A stretch of 64,000 nt of DNA from Devosia sp. A16 (lineage in GTDB: Bacteria > Pseudomonadota > Alphaproteobacteria > Rhizobiales > Devosiaceae). The position numbers were made by a program, and so were the translations under genes. Below the pieces are notes generated by a model. The model was not told the DNA's origin. It saw nothing but the letters and a program-made list of their open reading frames with translations, and did no database searches. This document shows, piece after piece, positions 169-25,237 of this stretch (the first letter of the stretch is position 1; each line of letters opens with the position of its first letter). The stretch covers positions 4,813,501 to 4,877,500 of the forward strand of contig NZ_CP012945.1 of the NCBI RefSeq assembly GCF_001402915.1. The letters run 5' to 3'.

Positions 169-188
169 TTTTTTCGCGAAACTGTTTC

Positions 189-218
189 TTGGCCGCTACC
201 GTTCTCGACCTATATAAT
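189..218 (+). promoter_or_regulatory. Predicted sigma-70 promoter of folE
   Basis: A TATAAT hexamer lies at 213-218 with TTGGCC at 189-194, an 18-base spacer. It sits between the divergent NifU-like and folE starts, about 105 bases before the folE ATG. Transcription start is not known. Confidence 0.5.
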
Positions 219-324
219 CATCGAGATGCAACAAGTCAGCGGCGTCCATCGTCACTGACAGCAAACCGGGAACCGTGGGGCGACGTATTGCGTCTGTCGC
301 CTGCTATTGACCGAGGAACCGAAG

Positions 325-942: not shown

Positions 943-1000
943 CCTGGCGACCGCAACAGCGATCAAGTCTGTTATATCAGGGCGGGCATAGGGTGAGCCC

Positions 1001-1843: not shown

Positions 1844-1874
1844 GCCCCGCCCGGGCGCGGGCTAGAACCCGGCC

Positions 1875-2318: not shown

Positions 2319-2329
2319 CTTTACAAGCC

Positions 2330-2551
2330 TCAATAATGCGGCGGTGGCGGCTCCACCGCCGGCGCCAGCGCTGGGTGCGCCTCGACGTCGCGCAGTTGCG
2401 AGCCCAGATTGTGCAGCTCGCGCTTCAGCGCCTCGATCTGCTTGAAGTGCTCGGCCAGCGCCGCATTAAGCTCCTCGATCGCCTGGTCCTGGAAGGCGAT
2501 CGTCGTCTCCAGAGTGACGATGCGGGTGGTGAGGTCGGTGATGTCGCTCAT
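2330..2551 (-). CDS. slyX: SlyX family protein
   Basis: Small protein of 73 residues, nearly all a coiled coil (ITDLTTRIVTLETTIAFQ through EELNAALAEHFKQIEALKREL), followed by a proline-rich tail ending PPPPHY. These are the hallmarks of SlyX, whose molecular role is unknown. The start ATG overlaps the stop of the upstream rhomboid gene in an ATGA junction, so the two are almost certainly translationally coupled. Confidence 0.88.
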   Translation of the reverse strand: MSDITDLTTRIVTLETTIAFQDQAIEELNAALAEHFKQIEALKRELHNLGSQLRDVEAHPALAPAVEPPPPHY

Positions 2552-3306: not shown

Positions 3307-3492
3307 AAAAACTCCCGGTTTTCCGGGCTTTGCAGCCCTATTCCCCGACTTATCCACACGGTCGCCGCCGCGTTAACCCTAACAATTGTTTAAGGGCGAT
3401 TTCCGTTCGGGCTTTTGACACTCTTGGCGTTGCGGCGGTCGCCCCCTTCTCCGGGACGCGATGCTCGGGGTTTGGAACAAGGCAACAAGACT

Positions 3493-4155
3493 ATGCAAAA
3501 GGCCAGCACCAAGGCGCTGTTCGACTATTGGAATGCGCTACGTGGCTCCCGCAGCGCTCCGGATCGACGCGATATCGACCCGACCCGAATCCGCTCCGCC
3601 CTCGCCAATACCTTTATTCTCGAGCTCAACGATACCAACGAGTTCGATTTCCGCCTCGCCGGCTCGCACCTGTGTTCTGCTTATGCACGCGAGCTCAAGG
3701 GCCGCTCCTTTACGCGTCTGTGGCACGAACGTGACCGCGATGCCATCGACACCCTGGTCCGCGCCGTCACCGAGGATCATGCGGTTGCCCTCGTCACTTT
3801 CCAGGGCACGACGGCGGTGCGCACGCGCCTGTCGATCGAGACCATTCTGCTGCCACTGCGCCATAACGGCTCCACCCAGACGCGCCTGCTCGGTGCCATG
3901 ACGGCGATCGACGAGCCCTACTGGTTCGGCGTGCAGCCCGTCATGGAACAGCGCATCACCGGCCTGCGCCTGATCTGGCCCGATGACGTGTCGCTGACCG
4001 AAATGCGCAACGACGTCGCAGCATCAGTGCCGGTCGAGGACCTGGTCTTCGCCAGCGCCGGATCGGCGGTCCCTACCCCGATGAGCGCCACCGTCTACGG
4101 TCGAACCGCGCGCCGCTATGCCCATCTAGCCGTCATCGATGGCGGCCGGCGCTAA
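3493..4155 (+). CDS. PAS domain-containing protein (PAS_5 type)
   Basis: 220-residue soluble protein. The first two thirds match the PAS_5 domain found in alphaproteobacterial proteins that are almost nothing but the PAS fold: LFDYWNALRGSRSAPDRRDIDP, then FDFRLAGSHLCSAYARELKGRSF, then LSIETILLPLRHNG. The C-terminal 60 residues show no recognised domain. The start chosen is the ATG just before QKAST; an upstream in-frame TTG is possible. It lies directly before a PilZ protein, a pairing common in rhizobia, so a role in c-di-GMP-linked or cell-cycle signalling is an inference. Confidence 0.82.
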   Translation: MQKASTKALFDYWNALRGSRSAPDRRDIDPTRIRSALANTFILELNDTNEFDFRLAGSHLCSAYARELKGRSFTRLWHERDRDAIDTLVRAVTEDHAVALVTFQGTTAVRTRLSIETILLPLRHNGSTQTRLLGAMTAIDEPYWFGVQPVMEQRITGLRLIWPDDVSLTEMRNDVAASVPVEDLVFASAGSAVPTPMSATVYGRTARRYAHLAVIDGGRR

Positions 4156-4260
4156 AAATCGTCGGTTCGGCGCATTGCGCGCCGCAAACCTTACCTTCGA
4201 TTAACCAAGAGCGGACTAGTCTAGGCCAATCAATCGCTTGGCCCCGGCAGGTCTTCTCTG

Positions 4261-4884
4261 ATGCTCACCGACAACGCACGCTCTGCGCGACCTGCCCGCT
4301 CGTATGCGCAGCTGCCGCGCTTCCAGCGCGTGCGGGTATCGCTGCTCGGACGCTATATGCTGACCGACCGCCGCGAGTTTCCCTGCCAGGTGCTGGAGAT
4401 GTCGCCCGGTGATGCCGTGGTCATCGCACCGATCGCCGGTGTCGCCGGTGAACGCGTCATCGCCTATATCGACCACCTCGGCCGGATCGAAGGCGATATC
4501 ACCGACGTCATCGACGGCGGCTTCAAGATGGACATCGTCGCCACCTCGCGCAAACGCGACAAGATGGCGGCTCAGCTGACCTGGCTGGCCAACAAGGAAC
4601 TGCTCAACCTGCCGGAAGACCGGCGGCATGAGCGCGTGGTGCCCGACAACCGGCACTCGACCGTCGTGCTCGACGACGGCCGCCGCTACAACTGCAAGAT
4701 CATCGACATTTCGCTCTCGGGCGCGGCGATCGAACTGGCCGTCCGGCCGGCGATGGGCACGCCGGTTACGTTGGGCCGCATGCGGGCCCGCGTGGTTCGC
4801 CATTTCGGTGACGGGGTCGCCGTCGAATTCGTCTCCGCCCAGGAGATGCTGACCGTCGTGCAGCAGAACCTGCGGATCAACTGA
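4261..4884 (+). CDS. PilZ domain protein, probably two PilZ-like domains
   Basis: 207 residues. The second half (about 118-205) begins with DRRHERV, an RxxxR-type element, and continues to DISLSGAAIEL, matching the [D/N]xSxxG signature, so it is a credible c-di-GMP-binding PilZ domain. The first half has a similar lay-out (FQRVRVSLLGRYMLTDRREF, then CQVLEMSPGDAVV) but a weaker signature, so it may be a degenerate, non-binding copy. No enzymatic domain is present; it probably acts as an effector or adaptor. It follows the PAS protein on the same strand after 105 bases. Confidence 0.88.
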   Translation: MLTDNARSARPARSYAQLPRFQRVRVSLLGRYMLTDRREFPCQVLEMSPGDAVVIAPIAGVAGERVIAYIDHLGRIEGDITDVIDGGFKMDIVATSRKRDKMAAQLTWLANKELLNLPEDRRHERVVPDNRHSTVVLDDGRRYNCKIIDISLSGAAIELAVRPAMGTPVTLGRMRARVVRHFGDGVAVEFVSAQEMLTVVQQNLRIN

Positions 4885-5048
4885 GCGCTCGCGGTGCGAC
4901 TTGCCGCACGGGCAGCACCTCTCTCCACCCCCTTATGCCTAACGAGTCCTCAACCGGACCGTTCGAATTCGCCTAAAAACTAGCTTGCAGTTTTTCGTTC
5001 GGGGCAATTCGCCCCCGGCATCGTGGCTTCCGTCAGGGGGCAACCACG

Positions 5049-5675
5049 ATGTCGAAGTTCAACGGGTTCATCGCAGCGGCAATCGCAGTCGGAATGGCAG
5101 CGTTCATCCTCGCCATGCCGGCACGCGCCGACCAGATCGATTTCACCAACCCCGCCTTCGCACCGGCCGGCGGCATCACCAGCATCCCGGTTGGCGCCGC
5201 CGAGTTCTGCAAGTCGCACCGCGGCGATTGCAAGGCCAACCCGAACGCCGTCGGCGCTATGGTGCTGACGGAGGCGCGCTGGGCCGAGCTGGTGCAGATC
5301 AACAACCTGGTCAACGCCGCCGTCACCGCCATCACCGACGAGGACTACTACAAGGTCACCGAGTACTGGGCCTACCCCAATGACGGCTACGGCGACTGCG
5401 AGGACTTCGCCCTCGCCAAGCAGAAGGCGCTGATCGACGCCGGCTGGAGCCCGTCGACGCTGCTGGTGACCGTCGTGCGTGAGACCAAGGGCACCGGTCA
5501 TGCCGTGCTGATGGTGCGCACCGACCGTGGCGATCTGGTGCTCGACAACCAGGATGGCCGCATCCTGCTGTGGAACGAGACGCCCTATCAGTATCTGAAG
5601 CGTCAGTCGCAGGCCGATGCCGGCCAGTGGGTCGACCTGGTCGATCCCCGCACCACGTTCGTCGCGACGAAATAA
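5049..5675 (+). CDS. Secreted transglutaminase-like cysteine peptidase (BTLCP family)
   Basis: 208 residues with an N-terminal signal peptide (hydrophobic stretch to about residue 24, likely cut after PARA). The mature part is the bacterial transglutaminase-like cysteine protease fold, with an apparent catalytic triad Cys117 (YGDCEDFA), His151 (TGHAVLMV) and Asp166 (LVLDN). In gammaproteobacteria a related periplasmic protein, LapG, cleaves an adhesin under c-di-GMP control; the alphaproteobacterial homologues are mostly uncharacterised. A PilZ gene lies just upstream, but no LapD-like or adhesin gene is present in the window. Confidence 0.9.
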   Translation: MSKFNGFIAAAIAVGMAAFILAMPARADQIDFTNPAFAPAGGITSIPVGAAEFCKSHRGDCKANPNAVGAMVLTEARWAELVQINNLVNAAVTAITDEDYYKVTEYWAYPNDGYGDCEDFALAKQKALIDAGWSPSTLLVTVVRETKGTGHAVLMVRTDRGDLVLDNQDGRILLWNETPYQYLKRQSQADAGQWVDLVDPRTTFVATK

Positions 5676-5710
5676 GGCTCAGCTGCGCCCTGCCATCGGA
5701 AGCGAAAGAA

Positions 5711-6031
5711 CTACGCCGTCAGCGCGAAATAGCTGCCGACGAAGATCAAGCCGGTGATGAAGGCCCAGCCGAAACCGACGAAGGCGGCGATCAGCGCCGA
5801 GCCGATCGACAGCGTGCCGTCGCGATCGTGCTGCCAGCCCATCTGCAGCATGATGAACGGTCCGCACACGAAGCTCATGGCGAGATGGCCGAGGCTGTGC
5901 GCGAAGGTCCTGCCGTCATAACGCAGCGCCGCTTGGGTGTTGGCCAGCCACTGGTAGAGGTAGGTGCCGACACCGGCGATCGAGAGGCCGACCGCCATGA
6001 TCAACCCAGCCAGCAGCAATTCCCTGAGCAT
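5711..6031 (-). CDS. Small membrane protein, probably DUF6949 family
   Basis: 106 residues with three likely membrane helices (about 2-28, 47-66, 76-104). The sequence, with FAHSLGHLAMSFVCGPFIMLQMGW in the centre, resembles a rhizobial family of about 100 residues of unknown function; the DUF6949 label is from memory and needs a profile search. It is convergent with the transglutaminase-like gene and divergent from the next gene. Confidence 0.72.
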   Translation of the reverse strand: MLRELLLAGLIMAVGLSIAGVGTYLYQWLANTQAALRYDGRTFAHSLGHLAMSFVCGPFIMLQMGWQHDRDGTLSIGSALIAAFVGFGWAFITGLIFVGSYFALTA

Positions 6032-6130
6032 TCACACGCCCTCTGAATGATCACCTTAACCGTTTGTTAAGCATATCCGGCGCCCATTGGCATGTCACCT
6101 GACGCACACAACACTGGTTAATTTGCACCG

Positions 6131-6802
6131 ATGACCGGCCACGCTCAGGTCCAGCGCCGCCACCACGCCTCGATCGGCTTCAACCTGACGGCCATCGCGG
6201 TGCTGCTTGCCCTGGGCGGCATTGGCGTTGCCTACCTGATCGACGCCGCCGGAAGGGGCGCCCGCACCCAGGTGCACCGCCTTGACACCGAAACCACCCT
6301 CACCCGAACTCTTGGTGGCCGCGATCTCGAGATTCCGCTGTCGTGGTTCCGCTACGAAGAGCAGCGCGTCGAGGGCTTCGCCAAGCAGATCGACTTGCGC
6401 TTCGAACTGCCGTTCGGCGTCGACGCACACAATGAGCCGGTCGATGTGACGCTGCTGCCGCGCAGCCGGGCGCGGCCGAGCGCCGCGCTGCTGGACGGCG
6501 TCTACCTGCACCAGTTCCTGCCCGAGCAATTGAGCGGCCCGCCGGGTCTGGTGGGCAAGCCGTTGCGGCCCGACGGGGGCTATGCCGGCGAGGTCGTCTG
6601 GTACGATGCGCTGTCGGCCGAACCGTTCGTCGCCAAATGCTCCAAGCCGATCGCATCAGCCGCGACCGGTCAGTGCCTCAGGACCGTGTATCTGGGCCCG
6701 GGCATCGCGGCGATCTACGCTTTCCCGGAGCCGACGCTGCAGCACTGGCGCGAGTTCGATGCGGAACTCACGACGCGGCTGGGGCAGATCGGCGCGCTCT
6801 GA
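6131..6802 (+). CDS. Hypothetical protein with single N-terminal membrane anchor
   Basis: 223 residues. One transmembrane helix at about 18-43 is followed by a roughly 180-residue extracytoplasmic domain that begins RTQVHRLDTETTLTRTLGGRDLEIPLSWFRYEEQ and contains two cysteines near its end. I do not recognise a characterised family; similar anchored proteins occur in rhizobia. The ATG follows a 99-base gap from the divergent membrane-protein gene. Codon use matches the neighbours, so it is very likely a real gene. Confidence 0.75.
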   Translation: MTGHAQVQRRHHASIGFNLTAIAVLLALGGIGVAYLIDAAGRGARTQVHRLDTETTLTRTLGGRDLEIPLSWFRYEEQRVEGFAKQIDLRFELPFGVDAHNEPVDVTLLPRSRARPSAALLDGVYLHQFLPEQLSGPPGLVGKPLRPDGGYAGEVVWYDALSAEPFVAKCSKPIASAATGQCLRTVYLGPGIAAIYAFPEPTLQHWREFDAELTTRLGQIGAL

Positions 6803-14710: not shown

Positions 14711-15239
14711 GAACGCGCGGATCATCATCGCCATGGGAGTGTCGTCGTCGGGCAAATCGGCGACCGGCGCGGCGATAGCGCGCCGGCTGCATGCCCCCTT
14801 CCTCGACGGCGACGGCTACCATCCGCCGGCCAACAAGGAGAAGATGCGCAACGGCATCCCGCTCACCGACGAGGATCGCTGGCCGTGGCTCGAAACCCTC
14901 GCCGGCGCGCTGCATGAGGCTGCCGAACAAAAGGGCGTCGCAGTGGGCGCCTGCTCGTCGCTGAAGCGCGCCTATCGCGAGTTTCTCACCGAGAAGGCCG
15001 GCGAGCCGATCCTTTTCGTCTTTCTCGATGGCGACATCGACACCATCCGCAAGCGCATCGAAGCCCGCAGCCACGAATTCATGAGCCCCAAACTGCTCGA
15101 CAGCCAGTTCGCCACGCTCGAACGGCCCGACCCGGACGAGAACGTGCTGGCGGTCTCGATCGAGGATCCCATCGAAACCGTGGCGGGCAAAGTGGTCAAG
15201 CAGCTCGGCCACCTGAAGGTCTTCAAGCGCGGACAGTAG
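14679..15239 (+). CDS. gntK: Gluconokinase
   Basis: Phosphorylates gluconate to 6-phosphogluconate with ATP. 186 residues, the small P-loop kinase type. The Walker A motif is MGVSSSGKSATG at about 19-30; DGDGYHPPANKEKM and GIPLTDEDRWPWL are the family substrate-binding stretches; ACSSLKRAYREFL follows. Its start lies inside the 3-prime end of the SDR gene in another frame (32-base overlap), so the two are translationally linked. Its product is the substrate of the divergent gnd gene, so the three make a compact gluconate route. Confidence 0.94.
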   Translation: MSTAPSLPPFENARIIIAMGVSSSGKSATGAAIARRLHAPFLDGDGYHPPANKEKMRNGIPLTDEDRWPWLETLAGALHEAAEQKGVAVGACSSLKRAYREFLTEKAGEPILFVFLDGDIDTIRKRIEARSHEFMSPKLLDSQFATLERPDPDENVLAVSIEDPIETVAGKVVKQLGHLKVFKRGQ

Positions 15240-15341
15240 CCGGCAGGTTGCCGCCATGTTTGCATTCGTCTGCAATGGCGAAAGCCAACCTTCACCGCTG
15301 CCGGACTAAGCTCGCCGCTGCAGATCTTCTGTGGGGCGGTC

Positions 15342-16073
15342 ATGTCGGGACGCGATCTGGTGCGCGATGTGCGGAGCACGACGAGGCCGGCGGCCGTTTC
15401 CGGCCAGTCCCTGGGACTGTTCGACCTGTTGGTGACCGCGCTGGCGGTCGTCGCCGTCGGCAGCCTCGCCTATTTTGGCTTCGCCACCTGGATGGCGCCC
15501 CACGCCCCACAGCCGGGCCCGCCCCAGCAGCTCGTCGCCACCACTGATCCCGACCTGGTGTGGACCGACGAGGATACCGCGCGCTGCCGGAACGAGGCGC
15601 TGGCCAGCGGCGAAGTAGACCTGCCTGCCCAGGCCATTATCGCCAATCGCGCCGTCACTGACGGCTTTGCGCCGATGGCAACGATGATCGCCTGCCGCAT
15701 CGCCACCAAGAGCCTCCGCTTCTGCGACCCCGAGCAGAAGGCTGGCCTGGTGGCGATGATCAATGACTATTTGGCCCGGCTCGACATGATCCGGCTCGGG
15801 ATGGGCGTGCAGGGCGCACCGATGGCCGTGCTCGGCGAGATGTTCGGAGGCGAGGTCCAGGCGGGGGCAGGAATCTACCAGATCGAAAAGGACGGCACCT
15901 TCGCGTTCATGCAGGTCTACCACGAGCGGATCTCCTCCGCGCTGCAGCGACTGGGGCGCGACGGCATCGCATCGCCCACCGATTTCGCGACTTTCATGGG
16001 TTCCGGCGTGCCGGCGAGCATTACCGACATGTTTGCCGGCGTGGTACCCGAACGCCAGGCGTGCACGGCGTAG
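15342..16073 (+). CDS. Hypothetical protein with one membrane anchor
   Basis: 243 residues. A single transmembrane helix at about 25-50 (LGLFDLLVTALAVVAVGSLA) is followed by a proline-rich linker and a roughly 185-residue outer domain with four cysteines spread across it (ARCRNEAL, IACRIA, RFCDP, QACTA at the C-terminus). I recognise no family. It follows gntK after about 100 bases and is convergent with the methyltransferase gene. Codon use is normal for the window. Confidence 0.7.
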   Translation: MSGRDLVRDVRSTTRPAAVSGQSLGLFDLLVTALAVVAVGSLAYFGFATWMAPHAPQPGPPQQLVATTDPDLVWTDEDTARCRNEALASGEVDLPAQAIIANRAVTDGFAPMATMIACRIATKSLRFCDPEQKAGLVAMINDYLARLDMIRLGMGVQGAPMAVLGEMFGGEVQAGAGIYQIEKDGTFAFMQVYHERISSALQRLGRDGIASPTDFATFMGSGVPASITDMFAGVVPERQACTA

Positions 16074-16080
16074 GCCGTCC

Positions 16081-16605
16081 TCAAAACCCGAATGAGAACT
16101 GCCCGGACGGCGAGGCGGCCTTCTCGAGCGCCAGCATTTCCATCTTGGCCCTCACCCCACCCGGGGAGGAGAACCCGCCGGTGCGTCCATCGGCGGCCAG
16201 CACCCGGTGGCACGGGACGATCAGCGGGATCGGGTTGGCCCCCATCGCCGCCCCCACGGCGCGCGACAGCGCCACATCGCCGAGCCAGCGGGCGATGGCG
16301 CCATAAGTGGTCGTCTCGCCCCAGGCGAGGCCGCGGATATGCTCGTAGATGCGCCGGTTGATGTCCGACACGCGCGACAGGTCGAGTTCGACATCGATGA
16401 AATTGTCGTTCGCCCCCTCGGCATAGGCGAGAATTCGCGCCGTGATTTCCGGCTGACCATCGGCAGCTTCGACGCCGCCCGTCTGCTCGAGCCGCGCCCG
16501 CATCTCCTGAAGCCCTTCGCCCGGCAGCAACAGGCGACAAATCCCGGCATCGGTCCAGCCGATCGCCATGGGTCCCAGAGCCGTGTCGAGCATGCGGTAG
16601 CGCAT
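16081..16605 (-). CDS. ogt: Methylated-DNA--protein-cysteine S-methyltransferase
   Basis: Suicide DNA repair protein that takes the alkyl group from O6-alkylguanine onto its own cysteine. About 174 residues. The active-site sequence IPLIVPCHRVL is present, followed by DGRTGGFSSPGG, and the DNA-binding region has GETTTYGAIARWLG. There is no Ada-type N-terminal zinc domain, so it is the Ogt-like short form. The ATG at 16605 is a choice between several close ATGs without a clear ribosome binding site; a farther start at 16677 would overlap the TetR gene. Confidence 0.9.
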   Translation of the reverse strand: MRYRMLDTALGPMAIGWTDAGICRLLLPGEGLQEMRARLEQTGGVEAADGQPEITARILAYAEGANDNFIDVELDLSRVSDINRRIYEHIRGLAWGETTTYGAIARWLGDVALSRAVGAAMGANPIPLIVPCHRVLAADGRTGGFSSPGGVRAKMEMLALEKAASPSGQFSFGF

Positions 16606-16649
16606 GGTGCGCAATGTAGTGGCGACCGGCGAAGCAATGAACCCGAAAA

Positions 16650-17213
16650 CTACGAAATTCCGCTCACCTTCAGCCACTCATGCAGCTCCCGCCTCAGAAA
16701 GCTGCGCAGCGTGCCCTCGCGCGAAAACCCCCACCACAGGACCGCGCCCTGCCACTGGCTGGCCATCAACCGGCCGAGCAGCGCCTGCCGGACAGGGTCA
16801 TTGCTGAGCCGCCGGCCAAGTGCGCGGTTCATCGCTCCGTTCCACTGCACGCCGCGGGCCCGAAGCACCGGATCGCGAAAATCCTCGCGCAGCAGCAGCA
16901 ACCCCTGCGCAGCCTCCTCACCGGCGCCATAGCCGGCCGACAGTCGCACCAGCAGAGCGATCGCCCCCTCCGGATCGACAGGATGACTGGCGTCCGCTCC
17001 GGCAACTGTCAGGTCGAGCTGGTCCCACATCCACAGCAGCGCGGCGCGCAGCAGCGCTTCGCGGTTGCCATAACGCTGCACCAGCGTCGCCGGCGACAGG
17101 CCGGTGGCAACCGATGCCGAAGCGAAGGTCAGGCCCGCCGGGCCTTCACGCGACACCAGGGCGGCGACGGCTTCGACGACATCCTCATCCGAGATCTTGC
17201 GGGGTCTGGACAT
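16650..17213 (-). CDS. TetR-family transcription regulator
   Basis: 187 residues. The N-terminal helix-turn-helix is ASASVATGLSPATLVQRYGN at about 30-49, preceded by the usual helix 1 (DEDVVEAVAALVSREG). The C-terminal ligand-binding part is helical with no recognised subfamily. It is divergent from a dihydrofolate-reductase-like gene across 66 bases that contain a perfect palindrome, so it very likely represses both itself and that gene. The second ATG, giving MSRPRKIS, is taken as start. Confidence 0.9.
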   Translation of the reverse strand: MSRPRKISDEDVVEAVAALVSREGPAGLTFASASVATGLSPATLVQRYGNREALLRAALLWMWDQLDLTVAGADASHPVDPEGAIALLVRLSAGYGAGEEAAQGLLLLREDFRDPVLRARGVQWNGAMNRALGRRLSNDPVRQALLGRLMASQWQGAVLWWGFSREGTLRSFLRRELHEWLKVSGIS

Positions 17214-17222
17214 GGCTTCCAA

Positions 17223-17244
17223 TATAAACGAATGTTCGTTTATA
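17223..17244. promoter_or_regulatory. Operator for the adjacent TetR regulator
   Basis: Perfect inverted repeat with half-sites TATAAACGAA (17223-17232) and TTCGTTTATA (17235-17244) around a TG centre. It sits 9 bases before the TetR start and 35 bases before the divergent enzyme start. The form and position are those of a self-regulating TetR operator. Confidence 0.85.
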
Positions 17245-17279
17245 AATCACTGAGACCAGCCTCACCAAGGAGAATCGTC

Positions 17280-17807
17280 ATGGCCCGCATCGTCGGCTAC
17301 ATCGCTTCGAGCCTCGACGGCTTCATCGCCGACCCCCAGGAGTCCCTGACCTGGCTCACCCAACGCACCGATATGCAGCTGGGCGAGTTCGACTACAACC
17401 TGTTCATCAAGCGGATCCGGACCGTGGTGATGGGGCGTGGTACCTATGACTGGCTGGTGCGCGAGAACATCCCCTGGCCGTATGGCGAGCAGCGGGTCAT
17501 CGTCGTCACTTCGCGCCCCCTGCCCTCGCCGATCGGCAAGCTCGAGACCCGGACCGATATTGATGCGCTGGTTGCCGAGCTCAGGGCGCTCGACGACGGC
17601 GACGTCTGGATGCTGGGCGGCGGCCAGTTGCAGATGGCCTTCATGGAACGCGGCGCGCTCGACGAGATCGAGATCTACGTCATCTCGCAACTGCTCGGCG
17701 GCGGCTTCCCGCTGTTTCCCGCCACCGGCTTAGAGAAGAGCCTGAAGCTGCTGTCTTCGAACACGCTGGGCACCGGCTGCGTTCGGCTGCATTACAGTTT
17801 CGAATAG
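17280..17807 (+). CDS. Dihydrofolate reductase family protein (RibD C-terminal-like)
   Basis: 175 residues of the RibD C-terminal/dihydrofolate-reductase-like fold: RIVGYIASSLDGFIAD at the N-terminus, VVMGRGTYDWL in the middle, and VWMLGGGQLQMAFMERGALDEIEIYVI carrying the nucleotide-binding glycines. Members named YyaP/YwjB-like are reductases of unknown substrate, not true FolA. The ATG is fixed by AAGGAG 7 bases upstream. The gene is controlled, by inference, by the divergent TetR protein through the operator between them. Confidence 0.88.
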   Translation: MARIVGYIASSLDGFIADPQESLTWLTQRTDMQLGEFDYNLFIKRIRTVVMGRGTYDWLVRENIPWPYGEQRVIVVTSRPLPSPIGKLETRTDIDALVAELRALDDGDVWMLGGGQLQMAFMERGALDEIEIYVISQLLGGGFPLFPATGLEKSLKLLSSNTLGTGCVRLHYSFE

Positions 17808-17901
17808 GCCCTGGGTCCCAGCGAAAGCTCAGTTATGCCTACTGCGTTCGACCTGAGCGCTCTTCGGTGAGCTTGCCATCGGAAAGCGCCTCAAGCTCGG
17901 C

Positions 17902-17984
17902 GTCATCCCCGCGAAAGCGTGGACCTCCGTTTGAGATCGCGCCGCGGGCACAAAAACGGAGGTTCCCGCTTTCGCGGGAATGAC
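17902..17984. repeat. Palindromic intergenic repeat, family B
   Basis: Inverted repeat with a left arm starting GTCATCCCCGCGAAAGCG and a right arm ending CGCTTTCGCGGGAATGAC, about 31 bases each with three mismatches. Family B is common between genes in alphaproteobacteria; another copy is at 36804-36880 and a half copy near 30865-30888. The rest of the gap from 17808 to 18084 shows nothing else. Confidence 0.75.
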
Positions 17985-18084
17985 CCGGTGGGTGGGGCAG
18001 GACCACCCGAGCGACGGCCGGACCCAATTCCCCATCCCACGCAAACGGATAGATTGGTCCGCCTTCGCCGGGTTGAACCGCCCC

Positions 18085-18480
18085 CTAGATCGGCTGGCTC
18101 TCCAGCACGATTTCCCACTTGTCGCCGAGTGCGATCTGGATCTCCGAGACGAGGAACGGCAGCAGCGCGTTGAACTCGTTGCGGTCCCGCTCGGAGATCC
18201 GCCACGTCGGGTCGTTCGGATTGTCCCAGTTGACCTGGCGGTCGTAGAGCTCGTTCAGCCGCGTCAGGCGCCGGATGATGTCGTTGGAAAAGCCCCAGAA
18301 CCCGAGTTCTGTGGCGTGGCCGTCGACGAACAGCGGCGCCAGCCCGTGGCTTACCATGCCGAAATCGACCAGGAACACCACCTGTTTCACAGTGGATCGT
18401 GCCCCAGCTTGCCGTGGGTCCCGCGCCGCGTCCGGCGCCTCGCCCGTCCAATCGACGGATACTGCTTTGCCGGAGGTCAT
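18085..18480 (-). CDS. Hypothetical protein
   Basis: 131 residues, no signal peptide and no membrane helix. The central stretch VKQVVFLVDFGMVSHGLAPLFVDGHATELGFWGFSND and the tail LGDKWEIVLESQPI are its best-defined parts. I recognise no family. The start at 18480 follows a GGAGG 5 bases upstream in the minus-strand sequence; a start 23 codons earlier is open but less likely. Flanked by repeat-rich sequence on the stop side. Confidence 0.65.
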   Translation of the reverse strand: MTSGKAVSVDWTGEAPDAARDPRQAGARSTVKQVVFLVDFGMVSHGLAPLFVDGHATELGFWGFSNDIIRRLTRLNELYDRQVNWDNPNDPTWRISERDRNEFNALLPFLVSEIQIALGDKWEIVLESQPI

Positions 18481-18665
18481 AGAACCTCCGTCATGTGCCG
18501 GAAATTGGGCATCACCGCCCTCGTTCGGAGGCGTTTTCTCCGCCACCACTCAAGATAGCCCATCGTCTATCGCCCCTCAGATCCGTCCGCAGGAGCAAGG
18601 TTAGCCAGTTCGTCTCCCATGGGCAATTTCTGCCCAGCAGAGTATCCAACTGCTTGTGCAAAAGC

Positions 18666-19016
18666 TCAGGCGAGCCACACCGCAATCAACGCCACCACAG
18701 CGGGAATTGTCTGTACAAACAGGATCTTGCGACCAACGGTGACGGCCCCGAACACACCTGCCACGGCGACGCACAGCAGGAAGAAGATCTTGACGGGATC
18801 GCCTGGCTCGCCCAGCCAGATGCCCCAGATCAACCCTGCAGCGAGGAAACCGTTGTAGAGGCCCTGGTTCGCGGCGAGCGTCTTCGACTCGCTGGCAAAG
18901 GCCGGCGTCGTGCCGAACGCCTTGATCCCCTGCGGTTTATCCCACAGGAACATCTCGAGGATCAGGATGTAGATGTGGATGAGGGCGATGACGCCCGTCA
19001 GTATGCTGCCGACCAT
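18666..19016 (-). CDS. DUF1304 family membrane protein
   Basis: 116 residues with four predicted membrane helices. The start LTGVIALIHIYILILEMFLW and NQGLYNGFLAAGLIWG are characteristic of DUF1304, small bacterial membrane proteins of unknown function. It is on the same strand as csbD but separated from it by a strong terminator. Confidence 0.9.
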   Translation of the reverse strand: MVGSILTGVIALIHIYILILEMFLWDKPQGIKAFGTTPAFASESKTLAANQGLYNGFLAAGLIWGIWLGEPGDPVKIFFLLCVAVAGVFGAVTVGRKILFVQTIPAVVALIAVWLA

Positions 19017-19053
19017 GCCCGCGACTCCGTGCTGGATGCGCCGAGCCTAATGC

Positions 19054-19079
19054 AAAAAGGCCGCCCGAGGGCGGCCTTT
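19054..19079 (-). terminator. Rho-independent terminator after the CsbD gene
   Basis: AAAGGCCGCCC (19056-19066) pairs with GGGCGGCCTTT (19069-19079), an 11-bp stem with a tiny loop, followed on the minus strand by a run of five T. It ends the CsbD transcript before DUF1304. Confidence 0.85.
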
Positions 19080-19100
19080 CCTGAACCTATGAGCGGTCGC

Positions 19101-19283
19101 TCAGTGCTTGAGCGCGTCGCGCGCTGCCTGCTTGACCTTGCCGGCCGCCTTCTGCACCGAGCCTTCCACCTTGTCGGCGGCGCCGTCGGCCTGCAGCTTG
19201 CGGTCCCCGGTCGCCTTGCCGACGGCTTCCTTGACGTTGCCGCGTGCCTGTTTGGCCGCACCCTTGATCTCGTCCTTGTGCAT
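19101..19283 (-). CDS. CsbD family stress protein
   Basis: 60 residues, very rich in Lys, Ala, Gly and Asp, with the family start DEIKGAAKQARGNVKEAVGKA and the repeat-like second half VEGSVQKAAGKVKQAARDAL. CsbD-like proteins are small, largely unstructured and induced in general stress in many bacteria; their function is not known. A strong terminator lies just after the stop. Confidence 0.92.
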   Translation of the reverse strand: MHKDEIKGAAKQARGNVKEAVGKATGDRKLQADGAADKVEGSVQKAAGKVKQAARDALKH

Positions 19284-19379
19284 TCCCGGTCTCCCTGGGG
19301 GTTAGCGTTCGGAGCAGATAATGCGGGCCGGCCACCAAACGTTCCGACGACGGGGCAAACTCGTCAGCGACCCCTACCG

Positions 19380-20153
19380 CTATCCCCGGCGCTTGGCATG
19401 GAGCTTCATCGAGCCCGACAGGTACTGGGCGAACCCCGGCTCGATCGTCTCATACCGCGCGACGAAATTCGGATGCTGGAGATAGAGGTCGGCGAGACCG
19501 GCATAGGCCTCGGGCGGACATGGCCTGCCCCACATCTGCGAGACCCACATCCGATGCCGGTTCAACAGCGGGTCGAGGGTGGGCGAGCCCATCGGCACTC
19601 CGCGGCGAAGCCCCTCGGCAAGCCCCTGCTCCATGTCGTGCAATTCGCGGTTGAGCTCGAGCTTTTCCGCCTCCGACAGCTTCTCATATCGGCCTCTGCT
19701 AAGCGCGATGCGCTCCGGCATGTCGCCGCCATACTGCTCCACCAGCCAGGCCTCGTATTCGGCCTGCTTGTCGGGCGAGACGCCTTTGTACAAATCCTCG
19801 TTCTTCATCACGCATTCTCCTTCAATGCTGGCGATCGTGCGGTCGATCGTCCTGACGAGTCGGGCGTAGCGCTTCGCCTCCTGGTTCAGACGTTCGCGCT
19901 GCCGGCGCAGCGCCGCCAGCCGATCGAAGTCAGGCGCATCGAGGATGGCGGCGATGTCCGAGAGTGGAATGCCGAGCTCTCGATGGAGCAGGATCTGCTG
20001 CAGCCGCAGCAATTGCTCCTGTCCATAGTGGCGATAGCGGTTGTGCCCCGTGAACGCCGGCCTCAGCAGGCCGATCTGGTCGTAGTGATGCAAGGTCCGG
20101 ATCGACACCCCGGACAGCTTTGCCACCTCTGCAACCGTCAGTGTTTTCATCAC
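19380..20153 (-). CDS. MerR-family regulator with TipAS antibiotic-recognition domain
   Basis: 257 residues. The MerR winged helix is at 1-75 (TVAEVAKLSGVSIRTLHHYDQIGLL then NRYRHYGQEQLLRLQQI), followed by a coiled-coil dimer helix (about 78-112) and a TipAS domain at about 113-257. TipAL of Streptomyces uses this domain to trap thiopeptide antibiotics and then activates its own promoter. The upstream region has a classic MerR promoter, so autoregulation is likely. The ligand is unknown. Confidence 0.93.
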   Translation of the reverse strand: MMKTLTVAEVAKLSGVSIRTLHHYDQIGLLRPAFTGHNRYRHYGQEQLLRLQQILLHRELGIPLSDIAAILDAPDFDRLAALRRQRERLNQEAKRYARLVRTIDRTIASIEGECVMKNEDLYKGVSPDKQAEYEAWLVEQYGGDMPERIALSRGRYEKLSEAEKLELNRELHDMEQGLAEGLRRGVPMGSPTLDPLLNRHRMWVSQMWGRPCPPEAYAGLADLYLQHPNFVARYETIEPGFAQYLSGSMKLHAKRRG

Positions 20154-20172
20154 CCGTTCTCCGCGGGATAAG

Positions 20173-20203
20173 GGGATAGTCCCTGACGCTACGTGAGGGT
20201 CAA
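20173..20203 (-). promoter_or_regulatory. MerR-type promoter/operator of the TipAS regulator
   Basis: On the minus strand TTGACC (20198-20203) and TATCCC (20173-20178) are 19 bases apart, the stretched spacing typical of MerR-activated promoters. The spacer holds the imperfect palindrome CCCTCACG-TAG-CGTCAGGG, centred between the two elements. It lies 20 bases before the regulator start. Confidence 0.8.
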
Positions 20204-20381
20204 TATCGATTTGCGCAAAAGCCGCGACAGCCGGTTTTACAGCGCGTCAACCAGGCTGCCCGCTATCGCCGGCAAATGTGGAAACTCGGTATCTTGTCCG
20301 CCGTTGCTCCCCCTCAGACTGCAAGTGCAAGCAGAGACGCGGCGCATGCCAGCGAGTTGCCCTGGGGGTCTGCGAGGTGAA

Positions 20382-20744
20382 ATGGCGCAACGGATCGACA
20401 TTCAGGACCTGCTCGTCTGGGCCTTCCGGCACCAGTCGGTGGAAACCTCTGCCGGAGCCGATCCGGACGCATTGGCCGTCTACTGGGCCGTGCTCGCCCT
20501 GCCCGTGCCGCATGCCACGGTGATCCGCCGCTTTGCCCGCGAAGCCCGCCGGCCCGATTGGCACGCCGCCCGCACGCGCTGCGTTTCTCTCGACGGCGTT
20601 CGGCGCGGGCGACGCTTGTACACTGAATGGGTCCGGGCCCTGACGGTGCTGCAGCGAACGCTCGACGGCTCGCTCGGCCGGTTTTCCGTCACCGGTCCGC
20701 ATCTCGACGATCAGCCTTGGCTACGCGAGCGGCTCCGCGCCTAG
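20382..20744 (+). CDS. Hypothetical protein
   Basis: 120 residues, cytosolic by appearance, with ten or more Arg and Trp residues in its second half (RRFAREARRPDWHAAR). The start MAQRIDIQDLLVWAFRHQ follows a GAGGTGA with short spacing. I recognise no family. It is convergent with the next gene and the two stops overlap by 4 bases. Confidence 0.6.
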   Translation: MAQRIDIQDLLVWAFRHQSVETSAGADPDALAVYWAVLALPVPHATVIRRFAREARRPDWHAARTRCVSLDGVRRGRRLYTEWVRALTVLQRTLDGSLGRFSVTGPHLDDQPWLRERLRA

Positions 20745-21217
20745 CGGCACTGCTGCACTAACCGCGCCAGCGCCGACGACGAACCGACAAGCCCAAAGCT
20801 GTGCGTCTTGTAGTGGCCGGCGGCGTCGACGACGCTCAAGCCCGTGCCCGACTTGAGCAGCGCCACCAGCGGCCCGTCTGCCGGCACGCTACCGGCGAAC
20901 ATGCCATCCATCGCCTCATACCGCATCGATACACGCTGGGTGGCAATGCCCACGTTGAAATCGACATCATTGACTTCGTCTCCGTCAGGAGCGCGCTCGC
21001 CTCCGGCCGCGAGGTCGTAGCGGATGTAGACCTCACCCGACGAGCAGGTAAGAAACAGATACGCTTGAGGTGCATCGGTCGCGCAGGCGGCAGCGGTGAA
21101 GACCAGCCCGCCTTCGTCGTCTTGCGGCCCAGCCGTCCAGGTCTCGCACGCCTCCTCGGCCGCAGCCGGCAGCGCCGCGAACAACAGGGCGAATGCAAAA
21201 AGCATGAAGCGGATCAT
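20741..21217 (-). CDS. Hypothetical secreted protein
   Basis: 158 residues with a clear signal peptide (IRFMLFAFALLFAALPAAAEE, likely cut after AAA). The mature part has four cysteines (EACETW, AACAT, FLTCSSGE, VQQCR) that could form disulfides and a YIRYDLAAGG stretch. No recognised family. Its start overlaps the stop of the ASCH-domain gene by 4 bases, so the pair is one transcription unit. Confidence 0.72.
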   Translation of the reverse strand: MIRFMLFAFALLFAALPAAAEEACETWTAGPQDDEGGLVFTAAACATDAPQAYLFLTCSSGEVYIRYDLAAGGERAPDGDEVNDVDFNVGIATQRVSMRYEAMDGMFAGSVPADGPLVALLKSGTGLSVVDAAGHYKTHSFGLVGSSSALARLVQQCR

Positions 21218-21501
21218 GGCGCTTCGCCCAGATAGCTGACCTCGATCCGCTGAAACAGCGGCCCCTGCTTCATGGTGTCGAGCCACCTGTTGAACTCCGC
21301 CACGTCGCGAAAGCCGGCCCTCCTTGCGTCCCCCTCGGTCACGTCGGCCGGCGACAGGTCGTCGATCCGGCCGATCTTCAGGAGCCCCACCTTGGTCTTG
21401 AGCGTTCCGCCCGGCTTCACCGTCGGTCGCGTCCAGCGCCGGAACTGCAGCGTGATGTCACCCCGCTTGATCGCCTCGAGCACCTCGAGCTTCAGCAGCA
21501 T
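21214..21501 (-). CDS. ASCH domain-containing protein
   Basis: 95 residues. The ordering of AIKRGDITLQFRRWTRPTVKPGG, LKTKVGLLKIGRIDDLSPADV and DVAEFNRWLDTM fits the ASCH fold, a PUA-like domain thought to bind RNA or modified nucleotides; some members act as amidohydrolases on modified cytidine. Function here is unknown. It is divergent from the TPR/YcaO locus, and the 338 bases between the two starts hold no other clear gene. Confidence 0.78.
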   Translation of the reverse strand: MLLKLEVLEAIKRGDITLQFRRWTRPTVKPGGTLKTKVGLLKIGRIDDLSPADVTEGDARRAGFRDVAEFNRWLDTMKQGPLFQRIEVSYLGEAP

Positions 21502-21839
21502 CCGTCACTCCTTCTTGACCCGCACAGCAAGGCTCGGCGCCGATACCGAGCACCACCTAGGCCGAAGCACCCGTGGGGCGTCGAGCCTGCGCGCCAACCC
21601 TTCGATGTCGTCGGGGCGAAGTCAAGGCGCGGCCGCGCGACGCGGCGCATTGGCAGGGATCTACTTGGCGACGTTCGATCGAAGCTGTCATTGCCATCCC
21701 AATCGTTGCATCAATGTCGCTGTTGCACAGATGCGCGACACCAACGTCAAATATCGCGGCAGCCAGCTTCCGCTGCGTAAAAATCGTCGATACGGTCCAC
21801 CTCAGGACAAGGCCGTTCAACTCAGTTGGATTTTCTGTT

Positions 21840-23066
21840 GTGAGAGCTGACCTATCGCATCATCCACGAACAGTTGCAGAACACCAGACGGCCACTATTC
21901 CTCGACTGCTGATTGTTCCGCCGCGCCACCGCTCACCGCTGGTGGACGCACAAGACCACAAGATCGCTCTCTCCCTCGTCACCGATGTTACGCTCAGCCT
22001 GTGCCGAAGCCGGCTCTATGAAGTCATCGCGCCGCATTCGGCAATGAAACTGACCAGCGGCCCGATCTGGGAGGAGATGCTCCCGGCCGACTATATCGTG
22101 CTCACCGACGTGGCGCTTTGCGAGACCGGCCTGCCGGTTTCGGTAATGAGCATCGACGTGGTCGCCACCGCGCTGGGCCAGCGCGTCTATCGCGGCGAAG
22201 TCGAGCTGCGCTCGGGCGCGCTGCAGAGCATTCATGACAGCTTCTGCGCCGTGCTTGCCGACAAGATCTGTGGCGAGATCGGCGCCTACGAGCTGCGGAA
22301 GTATCGCCGCACGGGCGCCGCCTCGGCCTATGTGCACTACCTGATCGCCATGCAGCGGCGCGATCGCAACGACTTGCCGTCCCTGCTGCGCGCCCAGAAG
22401 TCGCTAACCCGCTCGGTGCAGTTGTCACCGGACTTCGTGCCCGCCCTGGCCCAGCTCGCCCGCACTAAAACCCTCGAATGGCTGGAGCGCGGCAGTGCCG
22501 ACCGTACGCTGCTGCTCGAGGCCCGCCACTTGGCGCAACGCGCTCACGGCTACGATCCCAACGACAGCGCCAGCCTGCGCGAGCTTGGTCACGCGGCGCT
22601 TTATCTGCACGATCTCGCCGGTGCGCGGGAGCACTTCGAGGCGGCGCACGAGCTCGCCCCGAACCATGCGGATCTGCTCGTCGACCAGGCGGACGTTCTC
22701 ACCCACCTGTCGATGCACGACGAGGCCGAGGCAAAAATTTCGCGGGCGCTTTCGCTGAACCCGTTGGCGCCGGACGACTATTACTGGATCGCCGGGGCGG
22801 TCAGCTTCTTCCGGCGCGAGTACAGGCAGGCGCTGCGGCGCCTGTCGGCGATGGAGTCACCGGGGCTGGCGCTCCGCCTGATGGCAGCCTCGGCGGCGAT
22901 GCTGAACGACCAGGAAGCAGCCGCGAGCTACCGCGAGCAGGCGCTGGCCCGCGATCCGGCGTTCACACTCGACAAGTGGCTGAGCCTCTATCCGGCTCCC
23001 AACTCCGACGACACCGAGCACTATCTCGATGCCCTGTTCCTGGCGGGCTTTCCGCGAAGAACTTAA
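21840..23066 (+). CDS. TPR protein of the YcaO-TfuA locus
   Basis: About 408 residues. The first 130 residues (PRLLIVPPRHRSPLVDAQ and on) resemble the TolB-like middle domain seen in CadC- or cyclase-type TPR regulators, but without a DNA-binding domain in front. From about residue 150 there are TPR units: SLTRSVQLSPDFVPALAQLA, AQRAHGYDPNDSASLRELGH, ARE-HFEAAHELAPNHADLL, AEAKISRALSLNPLAPDDYY. The GTG at 21840 is only one option: ATG at 21714 and farther starts keep the frame but encode no recognisable sequence. It precedes the peptide ORF by 53 bases and YcaO by 161, so a scaffold or sensing role for that pathway is inferred. Confidence 0.75.
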   Translation: MRADLSHHPRTVAEHQTATIPRLLIVPPRHRSPLVDAQDHKIALSLVTDVTLSLCRSRLYEVIAPHSAMKLTSGPIWEEMLPADYIVLTDVALCETGLPVSVMSIDVVATALGQRVYRGEVELRSGALQSIHDSFCAVLADKICGEIGAYELRKYRRTGAASAYVHYLIAMQRRDRNDLPSLLRAQKSLTRSVQLSPDFVPALAQLARTKTLEWLERGSADRTLLLEARHLAQRAHGYDPNDSASLRELGHAALYLHDLAGAREHFEAAHELAPNHADLLVDQADVLTHLSMHDEAEAKISRALSLNPLAPDDYYWIAGAVSFFRREYRQALRRLSAMESPGLALRLMAASAAMLNDQEAAASYREQALARDPAFTLDKWLSLYPAPNSDDTEHYLDALFLAGFPRRT

Positions 23067-23079
23067 CCAGATGTTAATG

Positions 23080-23122
23080 CAATTGGGATCCTCCTTTGTT
23101 GTTCACAGGAGGATCCCAATTG
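23080..23122 (+). promoter_or_regulatory. Perfect 16-bp hairpin burying a ribosome binding site and start codon
   Basis: CAATTGGGATCCTCCT (23080-23095) and AGGAGGATCCCAATTG (23107-23122) are exact reverse complements around an 11-base loop. The right arm contains AGGAGG (23107-23112) and ends in the TTG start (23120-23122) of the peptide ORF. The RNA would hide both, giving translational control. There is no T run, so it is a poor intrinsic terminator. Confidence 0.85.
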
Positions 23123-23227
23123 AACAATTCATCCACTTCTTCGAAAGTTGTTACCGCAACGGCGAACAGCGCCAAGGCCATGCCGGCGCTGCCGCGCATT
23201 CCCAGCCGCAAATTCTTCCGGCAGTAG
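23120..23227 (+). CDS. Candidate RiPP precursor peptide (35 residues)
   Basis: A short ORF with a TTG start 7 bases after AGGAGG. The peptide begins MNNSSTSSKVVTATANSAKA and ends MPALPRIPSRKFFRQ: a Ser/Thr-rich, Cys-free first half and a basic, proline-containing second half. Codon third positions are mostly G or C from codon 12 on, unlike the competing frame at 23071-23268, which supports coding. It stands where a precursor is expected, just before YcaO and TfuA genes. It is in the same frame as YcaO, separated by a single TAG that abuts the YcaO TTG. Assignment as substrate is inference; an internal ATG at codon 21 could give a 15-residue form. Confidence 0.55.
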   Translation: MNNSSTSSKVVTATANSAKAMPALPRIPSRKFFRQ

Positions 23228-24427
23228 TTGGTGGGCGGCGCCGGTCCGACGCCGCCAAGCTGGTTTGAATATGGCGAACGCAATACAGCGGCCGCACTGA
23301 CCGTTGCGCGGTTGCGGCCGCATCTTGCTTCACTCGGCATCACACGCCTCGCCCGTCAGACCGGCCTCGACCGCATCGGGATTCCGTGTTTTTCAGCTAT
23401 CCGGCCCGCGGGACTGACGCTCAGCGTCAGCCAGGGCAAAGGTCGCGACGATGCCGGTGCGATGGCGTCGGCGCTGATGGAGGCTGCCGAGTTCGCCATA
23501 GCCGAGCGATCCGAGGTGCCGTCGCGTCTTGCCACCGCCGCCGCCCTTGGGCAGGCCGGCGAACGCTTCTGCGACGTGGCGCGCCTGTTGCCGGCCGATC
23601 GCCCGCTGCCTATCGATACGCCGATCCGCTGGCTCGGCGGACGCAGCTGGCCCGATGACGACGCCGTCTGGATTCCGCGCGACGCCCTGACCATCGGCGA
23701 GCCGGCCACCGACCTGCCGGAGGTCAGCCGCAGCACCAATGGCCTCGCGTCGGGCAACACCACTCAGGAAGCGCTGTTTCACGCCATCTGCGAACTGCTC
23801 GAGCGTGACGCGACCTCGCTGTGGTCGCTGCTGTCGGACGCGGCGCGGCTGGCGACCGAGTTCCCTGTCGAAGCCGTGGACGACGCGACGATCGGCGCCT
23901 TCCACCGGCAGATCGAAGCCGCCGACCTCGAACTGCGGCTGTTCGACCAGACCACCGAGTTCGGCGTCCCTTGCGTCATGGCGGTGATCAGCGAGCGCGG
24001 CTCAGACAAGGCCAGGCTGTTCGACATGGCCGCCGGCTATGGCTGTCATCCGAACGGCGCCCGTGCCATCGGGCGCGCCATCACCGAGGCGGCGCAGACC
24101 AGAATCACCAATATCGCGGGCGGACGGGACGACTTTCTGCCAGCCGAGTATGCCGAGCAGGTCGACGAGTCGATCGCCTTCCTGGCCACGCCCGGCCCCG
24201 GCCGGCGACAGCCCCCCGCCTGGCTGGCCGCCGACACGCCGCTGCCCGAAATGCTCGATCGGCTGGCGCAGCGGGTCGGGCCGGCTGCCGGAATCGTCTG
24301 GAGCGGACTGGGCGGCGCGCCCTATGGCATCGCGGTGGTGCGGGCGCTCTCGACAGTGCTCGAGGACCGCGAGACCAACGTCAATTGGTTGCCCGGACCG
24401 CGGGCCCTCGAGGTGCTCGGGTCATGA
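23228..24427 (+). CDS. YcaO-family ATP-dependent peptide-modifying enzyme
   Basis: 399 residues. YcaO enzymes use ATP to activate peptide backbone amides, forming azolines, thioamides or amidines. The family ATP/Mg motifs are present: SVSQGKG at about 66-72, ALMEAAE at 82-88, and TNGLASGNTTQEALFHAICE followed by LLERDA at 170-195. The N-terminus (WFEYGERNTAAALTVARLRPHL, then TGLDRIGIP) is that of the TfuA-partnered subgroup. There is no PxPxP ending as in azoline-forming YcaOs. The start is TTG 23228 or GTG 23231; neither has a Shine-Dalgarno, suggesting reinitiation from the peptide ORF. It overlaps the TfuA gene in an ATGA. Confidence 0.92.
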   Translation: MVGGAGPTPPSWFEYGERNTAAALTVARLRPHLASLGITRLARQTGLDRIGIPCFSAIRPAGLTLSVSQGKGRDDAGAMASALMEAAEFAIAERSEVPSRLATAAALGQAGERFCDVARLLPADRPLPIDTPIRWLGGRSWPDDDAVWIPRDALTIGEPATDLPEVSRSTNGLASGNTTQEALFHAICELLERDATSLWSLLSDAARLATEFPVEAVDDATIGAFHRQIEAADLELRLFDQTTEFGVPCVMAVISERGSDKARLFDMAAGYGCHPNGARAIGRAITEAAQTRITNIAGGRDDFLPAEYAEQVDESIAFLATPGPGRRQPPAWLAADTPLPEMLDRLAQRVGPAAGIVWSGLGGAPYGIAVVRALSTVLEDRETNVNWLPGPRALEVLGS

Positions 24428-25116
24428 GAGTGCTGTTCGTCGGTCCCTCGCTCTACGGCGAAACGCCCGACCTGACGGGCCTCGTCGTCCGCTCTCCGGC
24501 CCGGCAGGGCGATGTCGCCCGCGCGGTGCTGGACGGCGCCGGTGCGATCGGGCTGGTCGACGGGTTCTTCGATGCGGTCGCCGCGCCCTGGCACAAGGAG
24601 ATTCTGTTCGCCCTGGAGCGCGGCGTGACGATGCTGGGAGCGTCCTCCATGGGGGCGCTTCGCGCCGCCGAATGTGCCGCCTTCGGGATGCTGCCGATCG
24701 GCGCGATTGCCCAGGACTACCTGAGCGGCGCGCTCGACGACGATGCCGCGGTGGCGATCTCTCACGGCCCGGAAGAGCTCGGCTATCCACCGCTGACCGA
24801 GCCGCTGGTCAACGTGCGGCCGACCCTCGATCGCCTGCGCGAACTGGGGCTCATCTCCGACGCGGAGCGGACGCGCATCTGGGAGCGAGCCGGTCGGCTC
24901 TATTTCAAGGACCGCTCGCTCGAGGCCTTGCTGCCCGCCGATGAGCGTGAGGAGCTGATTGCCGCCTACCGCAAGCACAAGGTCAACCGCAAGGCGGCAG
25001 ATGCGCTGCTGCTGGTCGCGGAGCTGAAGACCTGCAAAGCCATGGCGAGCGTCCACCCGACAGAACCCGAGCCGTCGTTCTTTTCGAGGTACGTTCTTCC
25101 TGAGCTGATGGGCTGA
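24424..25116 (+). CDS. TfuA-like protein
   Basis: 230 residues of the TfuA family, named after a protein of the trifolitoxin cluster of Rhizobium. In thioamide-forming pathways TfuA acts with YcaO, probably helping recruit or deliver the sulfur. Family stretches seen are VLFVGPSLYG, IGLVDGFFDAVAAPWHKEIL, GVTMLGASSMGALRAAE and the VNVRPTLDRL region. Its ATG overlaps the YcaO stop (ATGA), so the two are made together. A tRNA-Leu gene on the other strand lies 35 bases beyond its stop. Confidence 0.93.
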   Translation: MRVLFVGPSLYGETPDLTGLVVRSPARQGDVARAVLDGAGAIGLVDGFFDAVAAPWHKEILFALERGVTMLGASSMGALRAAECAAFGMLPIGAIAQDYLSGALDDDAAVAISHGPEELGYPPLTEPLVNVRPTLDRLRELGLISDAERTRIWERAGRLYFKDRSLEALLPADEREELIAAYRKHKVNRKAADALLLVAELKTCKAMASVHPTEPEPSFFSRYVLPELMG

Positions 25117-25151: not shown

Positions 25152-25237
25152 TGGTGCGGGCGGTGGGACTCGAACCCACACGGGGATACCCCCTCCGGAT
25201 TTTAAGTCCGGTATGTCTACCATTCCATCACGCCCGC
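25152..25237 (-). tRNA. tRNA-Leu (anticodon UAA)
   Basis: Class II tRNA with a long variable arm. Acceptor arms GCGGGCG (complement of 25231-25237) and CGCCCGC (complement of 25156-25162) pair fully; the anticodon loop reads CTTAAAA with TAA as anticodon; the T arm has GGTTCGAGTCC. CCA is encoded at 25152-25154 (as TGG on the plus strand). Confidence 0.97.

Follow-up and report, generated by a model that had tools for sequence, protein, structure and literature searches.

The window (the whole 64-kb stretch of DNA analysed here, from Devosia, a genus of soil bacteria) carries an operon with the order TPR protein, 35-codon peptide, YcaO, TfuA, and the ribosome binding site of the peptide gene lies in one arm of a hairpin. 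The features are listed in window positions.

21951–23066, + strand: TPR protein corresponding to the C-terminal part of a SARP-like (BTAD-TPR) protein; start uncertain, frame open from 21573
23080–23095, + strand: 5' (anti-Shine-Dalgarno) hairpin arm, exact complement of 23107–23122; CAATTGGGATCCTCCT
23096–23106, + strand: hairpin loop of 11 nt according to folding, with two more pairs possible inside
23107–23122, + strand: 3' hairpin arm with the Shine-Dalgarno (SD) sequence AGGAGG and the TTG start; AGGAGGATCCCAATTG; stem kept in five close genomes
23120–23227, + strand: candidate RiPP precursor, 35 codons; conserved C-terminus PRIPSRKFF, 5 of 136 family genomes, omega 0.11–0.48
23228–24427, + strand: YcaO (PF02624, E=7e-51); start TTG 23228 or GTG 23231
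24424–25116, + strand: TfuA (PF07812, E=3e-38); overlaps the YcaO stop by ATGA
25152–25237, − strand: tRNA-Leu(TAA), shortly after TfuA, its 3' end pointing towards the operon; no component of the lock discussed below

YcaO and TfuA are adjacent, both score above cut-off, and they are accompanied by a short ORF with a conserved core. The same arrangement of a YcaO adjoining TfuA and a short precursor ORF is described for the TfuA-YcaO RiPP clusters that are common in Proteobacteria (>500 in Rhizobium; PMC8120280), and such clusters, with thioamidated products, are an established kind (PMC8120280; see also PMC6511847). The best NCBIfam match of the window YcaO is the McrA-glycine thioamidation YcaO (under the model cut-off), and TfuA matches the solved TfuA homologue 6xp8 with E=1.6e-27. 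Judged from these similarities, the two neighbouring enzymes probably modify the peptide, and the modification would be a thioamidation. Among close genomes, omega is 0.12–0.21 for YcaO and 0.15–0.22 for TfuA (the latter from three genomes). As the preliminary description had it, the peptide ORF immediately precedes YcaO: both possible YcaO starts directly follow the peptide stop, and no SD of its own is evident for YcaO. A search for defence systems gave no match for three proteins, and a plasmid search (E limit 1e-40) returned 40 records, each with <60% identity. In Root413D1 a tRNA-Leu(TAA) likewise lies just past TfuA, with its 3' end towards the operon, and in 66-14 a 67-nt piece of tRNA-Leu(TAA) (L037:6973-7039; 95.5%) is found at this place, the other flanks being different; the tRNA-Leu(TAA) beside the operon is a possible insertion site. 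The window DNA outside the cassette has no match to the compared flanks of 66-14 or G005, save the tRNA piece in 66-14.

The product of the ORF at 23120–23227 is MNNSSTSSKVVTATANSAKAMPALPRIPSRKFFRQ (TTG read as M). It had been described as Ser/Thr-rich and basic and its gene as GC-rich in third positions, and both descriptions hold, the former by inspection and the latter with codon-position GC of 0.42/0.56/0.72. The peptide is not hydrophobic (by inspection), unlike the toxin peptides of type I toxin-antitoxin systems; a longer start at TTG 23096 was dismissed because inspection revealed no SD at proper spacing. A DNA pattern for PRIPSRKFF matches 5 of 136 family genomes, which are exactly those with a close YcaO. 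The omega values of the peptide gene were obtained over 31–33 codons and are a weaker signal than that of the TPR remnant (see below). The peptides of three close relatives have 31–33 residues and a TTG start, and that of G005 has 63 residues and an ATG start; the C-terminal end reads LPRIPSRKFFRQ in the close four and MPRIPSRKFFKH in G005.

The stem, the SD and the frames can be read directly in the sequence. The arms at 23080–23095 and 23107–23122 proved to be exact complements over 16 bp, and the second arm contains AGGAGG (23107–23112) and ends with the TTG start (23120–23122, spacing 7 nt), just as in the preliminary description. No other perfect inverted repeat (loop 3–20) of the 64-kb window is as long as this stem; the arms of the runner-up have 13 bp, and the longest inverted repeats in 20 Markov-shuffled windows have 9–13 bp. 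Folding of the RNA at 23060–23230 gave z = -5.1, with none of 200 shuffles as stable, and the predicted energy to open the SD is 17.8 kcal/mol (shuffle p=0.003). Several familiar roles of such an element were rejected. A search of the 5.03-Mb genome that allowed 2 mismatches found no further copy of either arm, which rules out a repeat family or a trans copy of the arms, and an intrinsic terminator was discarded because no U-run follows the stem. As to the known Rfam riboswitch and thermometer families, five matches at 22900–23400 (E up to 1) each stay under their own gathering score, and the 14 loci searched yielded one tRNA alone.

A YcaO with at least 65% identity is present in 5 of 19 genus genomes (window included), the next best having 53%. 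All five keep the peptide frame, the PRIPSRKFF core and the stem, so neither frame nor stem has been lost in these YcaO- and TfuA-retaining relatives. In the five-sequence stem alignment, 89.2% of 83 cells are standard pairs, compared with 30–52% when the partner is slid by 1–3 columns. The compensatory changes anticipated in the preliminary description, together with a conserved peptide, were indeed seen as 4 both-side pair changes (≤1 in the slid controls), the core being present in five of five genomes. Note that the five sequences by themselves are suggestive of covariation, since the covariation score is also attained in 32 of 500 shuffles of the columns. Thirteen of the 74 paired stem cells are G-U and one of the nine unpaired cells is A-C, a pattern more in keeping with RNA than with a palindrome in the DNA. 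All 16 pairs are intact in the window only; the other four relatives have 1–4 interruptions, and quasi-palindrome correction could be the source of the perfection of the window stem. A sixth record (L036, a MAG contig, positions 1-6596) has a close YcaO, resembling that of 66-14, only from residue 152 onward; this later part continues in frame from a membrane-protein-like N-terminus, and of TfuA the record has the start. The fusion is either an assembly error or real. A search of the 6,596 bases for the peptide core found none, which may reflect a real loss or a chimeric assembly, and with its partial YcaO the record was left out of the locus counts.

In most other loci seen, the gene upstream of the precursor encodes ~620–670 residues with BTAD and TPR domains, a SARP-like regulator; of five full-length proteins scanned, four had BTAD above cut-off and one, that of G019, below it, and the upstream frame of G065, near a contig end, has just 190 codons. 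The window protein has TPR domains but BTAD is absent, and full-length BTAD-TPR homologues align to it only from about residue 229–286 onward. The N-terminal 260 residues of these homologues gave no match at E 0.01 in 15001–23070 of the window or in four relatives. The SARP-like regulator of the five genomes has thus lost its DNA-binding/BTAD half and remains under strong purifying selection (window 21573–23066). The omega of the remnant is 0.05–0.07 in the four closest genomes and it is therefore kept.

On the sequence of their precursors, the YcaO-TfuA operons fall into two types, A and B. Type A precursors begin with MRYVIIG, MAKLAVLG or similar and are spread over Devosiaceae (14 of 29 loci) and other Hyphomicrobiales. 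Type B, that of the window, was defined as the remaining loci with a window-like YcaO and is present in Devosiaceae and in one gammaproteobacterial MAG (locus L038). The type-B leaders vary (D..TGK.E in 4 of 10 outside the lineage of the window, absent in its close group), and the window precursor is shorter than the other aligned type-B peptides. TfuA follows YcaO in 15/15 type-B and 29/29 type-A loci. The spacer from the SARP stop to the precursor start differs: it has 53–145 nt in all 15 type-B loci and 7–30 nt in 26 of the 29 of type A, the exceptions being L009 (where the stop was probably assigned wrongly), L065 and L040. Type B does not form a single clade in a quick YcaO tree, in which it takes two changes, but the AU test does not reject a single clade (p-AU 0.37). 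The type-B precursor of G065 (L157) has a repeated core, AAHVLYRESPGI AAHVLYRDTPIKAA. At L076:5128-9228 (same genome, 1.19 Mb) lies another TfuA-YcaO operon, in which the SARP-like gene is full-length and the SD open; its precursor has 72 residues and ends with AWFYNAK.

The 15 type-B loci comprise the window, four found by YcaO similarity (all with the stem), six recognised in a hairpin scan (the gammaproteobacterial MAG, D. soli, G019, G116, G006 and G018) and four found afterwards with profile A3 (G076, G159, G157 and G065). This profile was built from ten type-B YcaOs, six of which had been chosen after the hairpin scan. With it, 14 of 136 family genomes scored >500 bits and the remainder <450; nine of the 14 had themselves gone into A3 as rows and Root413D1 nearly duplicates one such row, which leaves the last four scores (506–552 bits) as the independent ones. 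Outside the family, nothing exceeded 380 bits in evenly drawn sets of 385 class, 398 phylum and 397 order genomes. The scan for SD-enclosing stems, which considered solely stems that enclose the SD, covered 55 loci (11 type B, 27 type A, 17 without assignable precursor), and the loci dropped from the energy comparison were L011, L019, L020, L021, L028, L049, L050, L051, L052, L053, L055, L057, L060, L062, L067, L069 and L071. In L020, a strong stem precedes an ORF of 19 codons that lies 211 nt from the YcaO match.

The SD was regarded as buried if at least 10 kcal/mol is required to free it. By this threshold it is buried in 12/15 type-B loci, a count biased upward because six of the 15 were recognised via the hairpin, compared with 0/29 type-A loci (at most 4.6 kcal/mol; several of the 29 are near copies, so that their number overstates independence) and 2/36 ordinary genes with strong SDs. 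The type-B loci below the threshold are G159 (8.0), G065 (3.9) and G157 (1.9). Shuffling of the upstream sequence gave p <0.05 in 11 of 15 type-B loci; for the four found later p was 0.020 (G076), 0.053 (G159), 0.611 (G157) and 0.399 (G065), i.e., the lock is clear in one of them, weak in one (G159) and absent in two (G157, G065). For the gammaproteobacterial stem p was 0.12, and a combined p over 12 lineages, being biased by the way in which loci were found, is not relied on. When the most stable local structure near the start was determined (SD not required), at least 4 of 6 SD bases were paired in 14/15 type-B and 9/29 type-A loci; this structure is weak in G065 (-9.6 kcal/mol) and misses the SD in G157. 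Among 13 stems, that of the window has -29 kcal/mol, those of three relatives ~-20 and nine others -6 to -19, and the stem sequences are not the same from lineage to lineage. Four genomes (G000, G003, G011 and G012) each possess a hairpin type-B operon and a hairpin-free type-A operon. In the spacer of L163 (G006) a stretch able to pair with the hairpin loop and the inner arm was noticed by eye and is a possible alternative fold. Comparison of genomes thus establishes both the conservation of peptide and stem and the recurrence of the hairpin in type B.

The most likely reading, which we hold with reasonable though not high confidence, is that the hairpin sequesters the ribosome binding site and acts as a default-low translation lock on the precursor. 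Placed directly before the precursor, with the SD (in the window also the start codon) in its 3' arm and the anti-SD in its 5' arm, the stem would form as soon as it is transcribed and hide the ribosome binding site, and the precursor would by default be poorly translated. YcaO and TfuA would probably be coupled to the same lock, as suggested by the lack of an evident SD for YcaO after the precursor stop and by the ATGA overlap of TfuA. We infer that opening for high output would be regulated and could come from processing, a trans RNA, a protein, a ligand or a transcript start inside the hairpin. Opening by ribosomes on the SARP gene was judged unlikely because of the 13 nt from its stop codon to the stem in the window and the variable length of the spacer. 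A stem of -29 kcal/mol might also silence the gene for good, which speaks against a lock. The earlier proposal of a RiPP precursor under structural translational control is partly supported, in that peptide and stem are conserved and the SD hairpin recurs in type B; what speaks against a general need for such control is that the SD of type A is open (in four cases in the same genomes) and that two of 15 type-B loci are unlocked by energy. A wider version is considerably more tentative, and we would sooner doubt than accept it: type-B TfuA-YcaO operons would share a dedicated, regulated lock on the ribosome binding site, gating the precursor and the (coupled) enzymes, and in the lineage of the window this RNA lock would be the main remaining control, as the SARP has lost its DNA-binding half yet is under strong selection, perhaps acting on RNA, peptide or enzymes.

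Four other explanations were ranked below the lock. The foremost of them, which we consider improbable, supposes that, as for the IS10/IS50 transposase, RNA reading through from the SARP gene carries the 5' arm and is silenced, and that a promoter in the spacer starts an mRNA inside the hairpin, with the SD free. Indeed, with the precursor start 53–145 nt past the SARP stop in every type-B locus, read-through RNA would carry the hairpin, and four of the five close genomes, that of the window among them, have a TTAAT box ahead of the stem; however, a consensus scan of 22800–23400, limited to sigma-70-like promoters, found none, and a start in the loop would need a -10 box in the GC-rich 5' arm, where none is seen. 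Slightly less probable still is that the hairpin, lying between the SARP and precursor genes, serves mainly to stabilise the mRNA or as a site of its processing, burial of the SD being a side effect. Intercistronic hairpins are known in such roles, and an AU-rich stretch lies directly before the stem in close relatives, but a stabiliser need not take up the SD, whereas the best structure does so, by at least four of six bases, in 14 of 15 type-B loci despite their differing stems and spacers.

The perfect 16-bp match, unique to the window among the five, the truncated SARP and the shortness of the window precursor would all suit an operon in decay, with a SARP now missing its DNA-binding half, a precursor now missing its leader, and a stem that came about through quasi-palindrome correction and serves no selected function. 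We find this hard to reconcile with the low omega values of the TPR, YcaO and TfuA genes given above, the peptide core invariant in five genomes and the open frames of the window, and regard it as quite unlikely. The perfect dyad in the window could also be a DNA operator for a regulator, but the G-U pairs of the relatives (13, versus one A-C) spoil a DNA dyad and keep RNA pairing, other lineages have stems of different sequence, and, as stated, no copy of an arm occurs elsewhere in the genome within 2 mismatches; on the G-U pairs and the differing stems this explanation, the least probable of the four, was rejected.

Stems over the SD are known in alphaproteobacteria from RNA thermometers such as ROSE, which the Devosia hairpin resembles in this respect; it differs in having no Rfam match at gathering score, and in the four closest genomes the stems, with -20 to -29 kcal/mol, appear too stable to melt by warming. 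In IS10/IS50, a terminal inverted repeat hides the SD of the transposase gene in read-through RNA; in contrast, the gene that follows the Devosia hairpin does not encode a transposase, and inspection of the arm reveals no promoter. As in other cis-acting SD sequestration, the anti-SD arm pairs with the SD and the pairing is kept through change, although shuffled columns reach the covariation score at the frequency given above. A parallel in arrangement is the AapA3 type I toxin mRNA, in which local anti-SD hairpins hide the SD and block premature translation, with compensatory changes reported (PMC6733600). Like the Devosia locus, it has a short peptide ORF with a hairpin-hidden SD, but the hairpins described there are metastable and accompanied by an antisense RNA, whereas in Devosia one stem, with no antisense RNA known, lies beside a peptide-modifying operon. 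The SD lock, the SARP-derived TPR gene and the PRIPSRKFF core are absent from the account of TfuA-YcaO clusters in PMC8120280, as far as its main text goes, in which the words hairpin, untranslated, ribosome binding and Devosia do not occur. In the open-licence literature we found no paper that describes such a hairpin for a RiPP precursor; short hairpins that sequester the SD are known, as are TfuA-YcaO RiPPs, and what appears new is their combination.

If true, a conserved start-site lock on a RiPP precursor would help to explain silent clusters, and its removal would be needed for heterologous production. The hairpin furthermore offers a sequence signature for finding short precursors with a TTG start, and the presence of locked and unlocked TfuA-YcaO operons in one genome makes this control directly testable.
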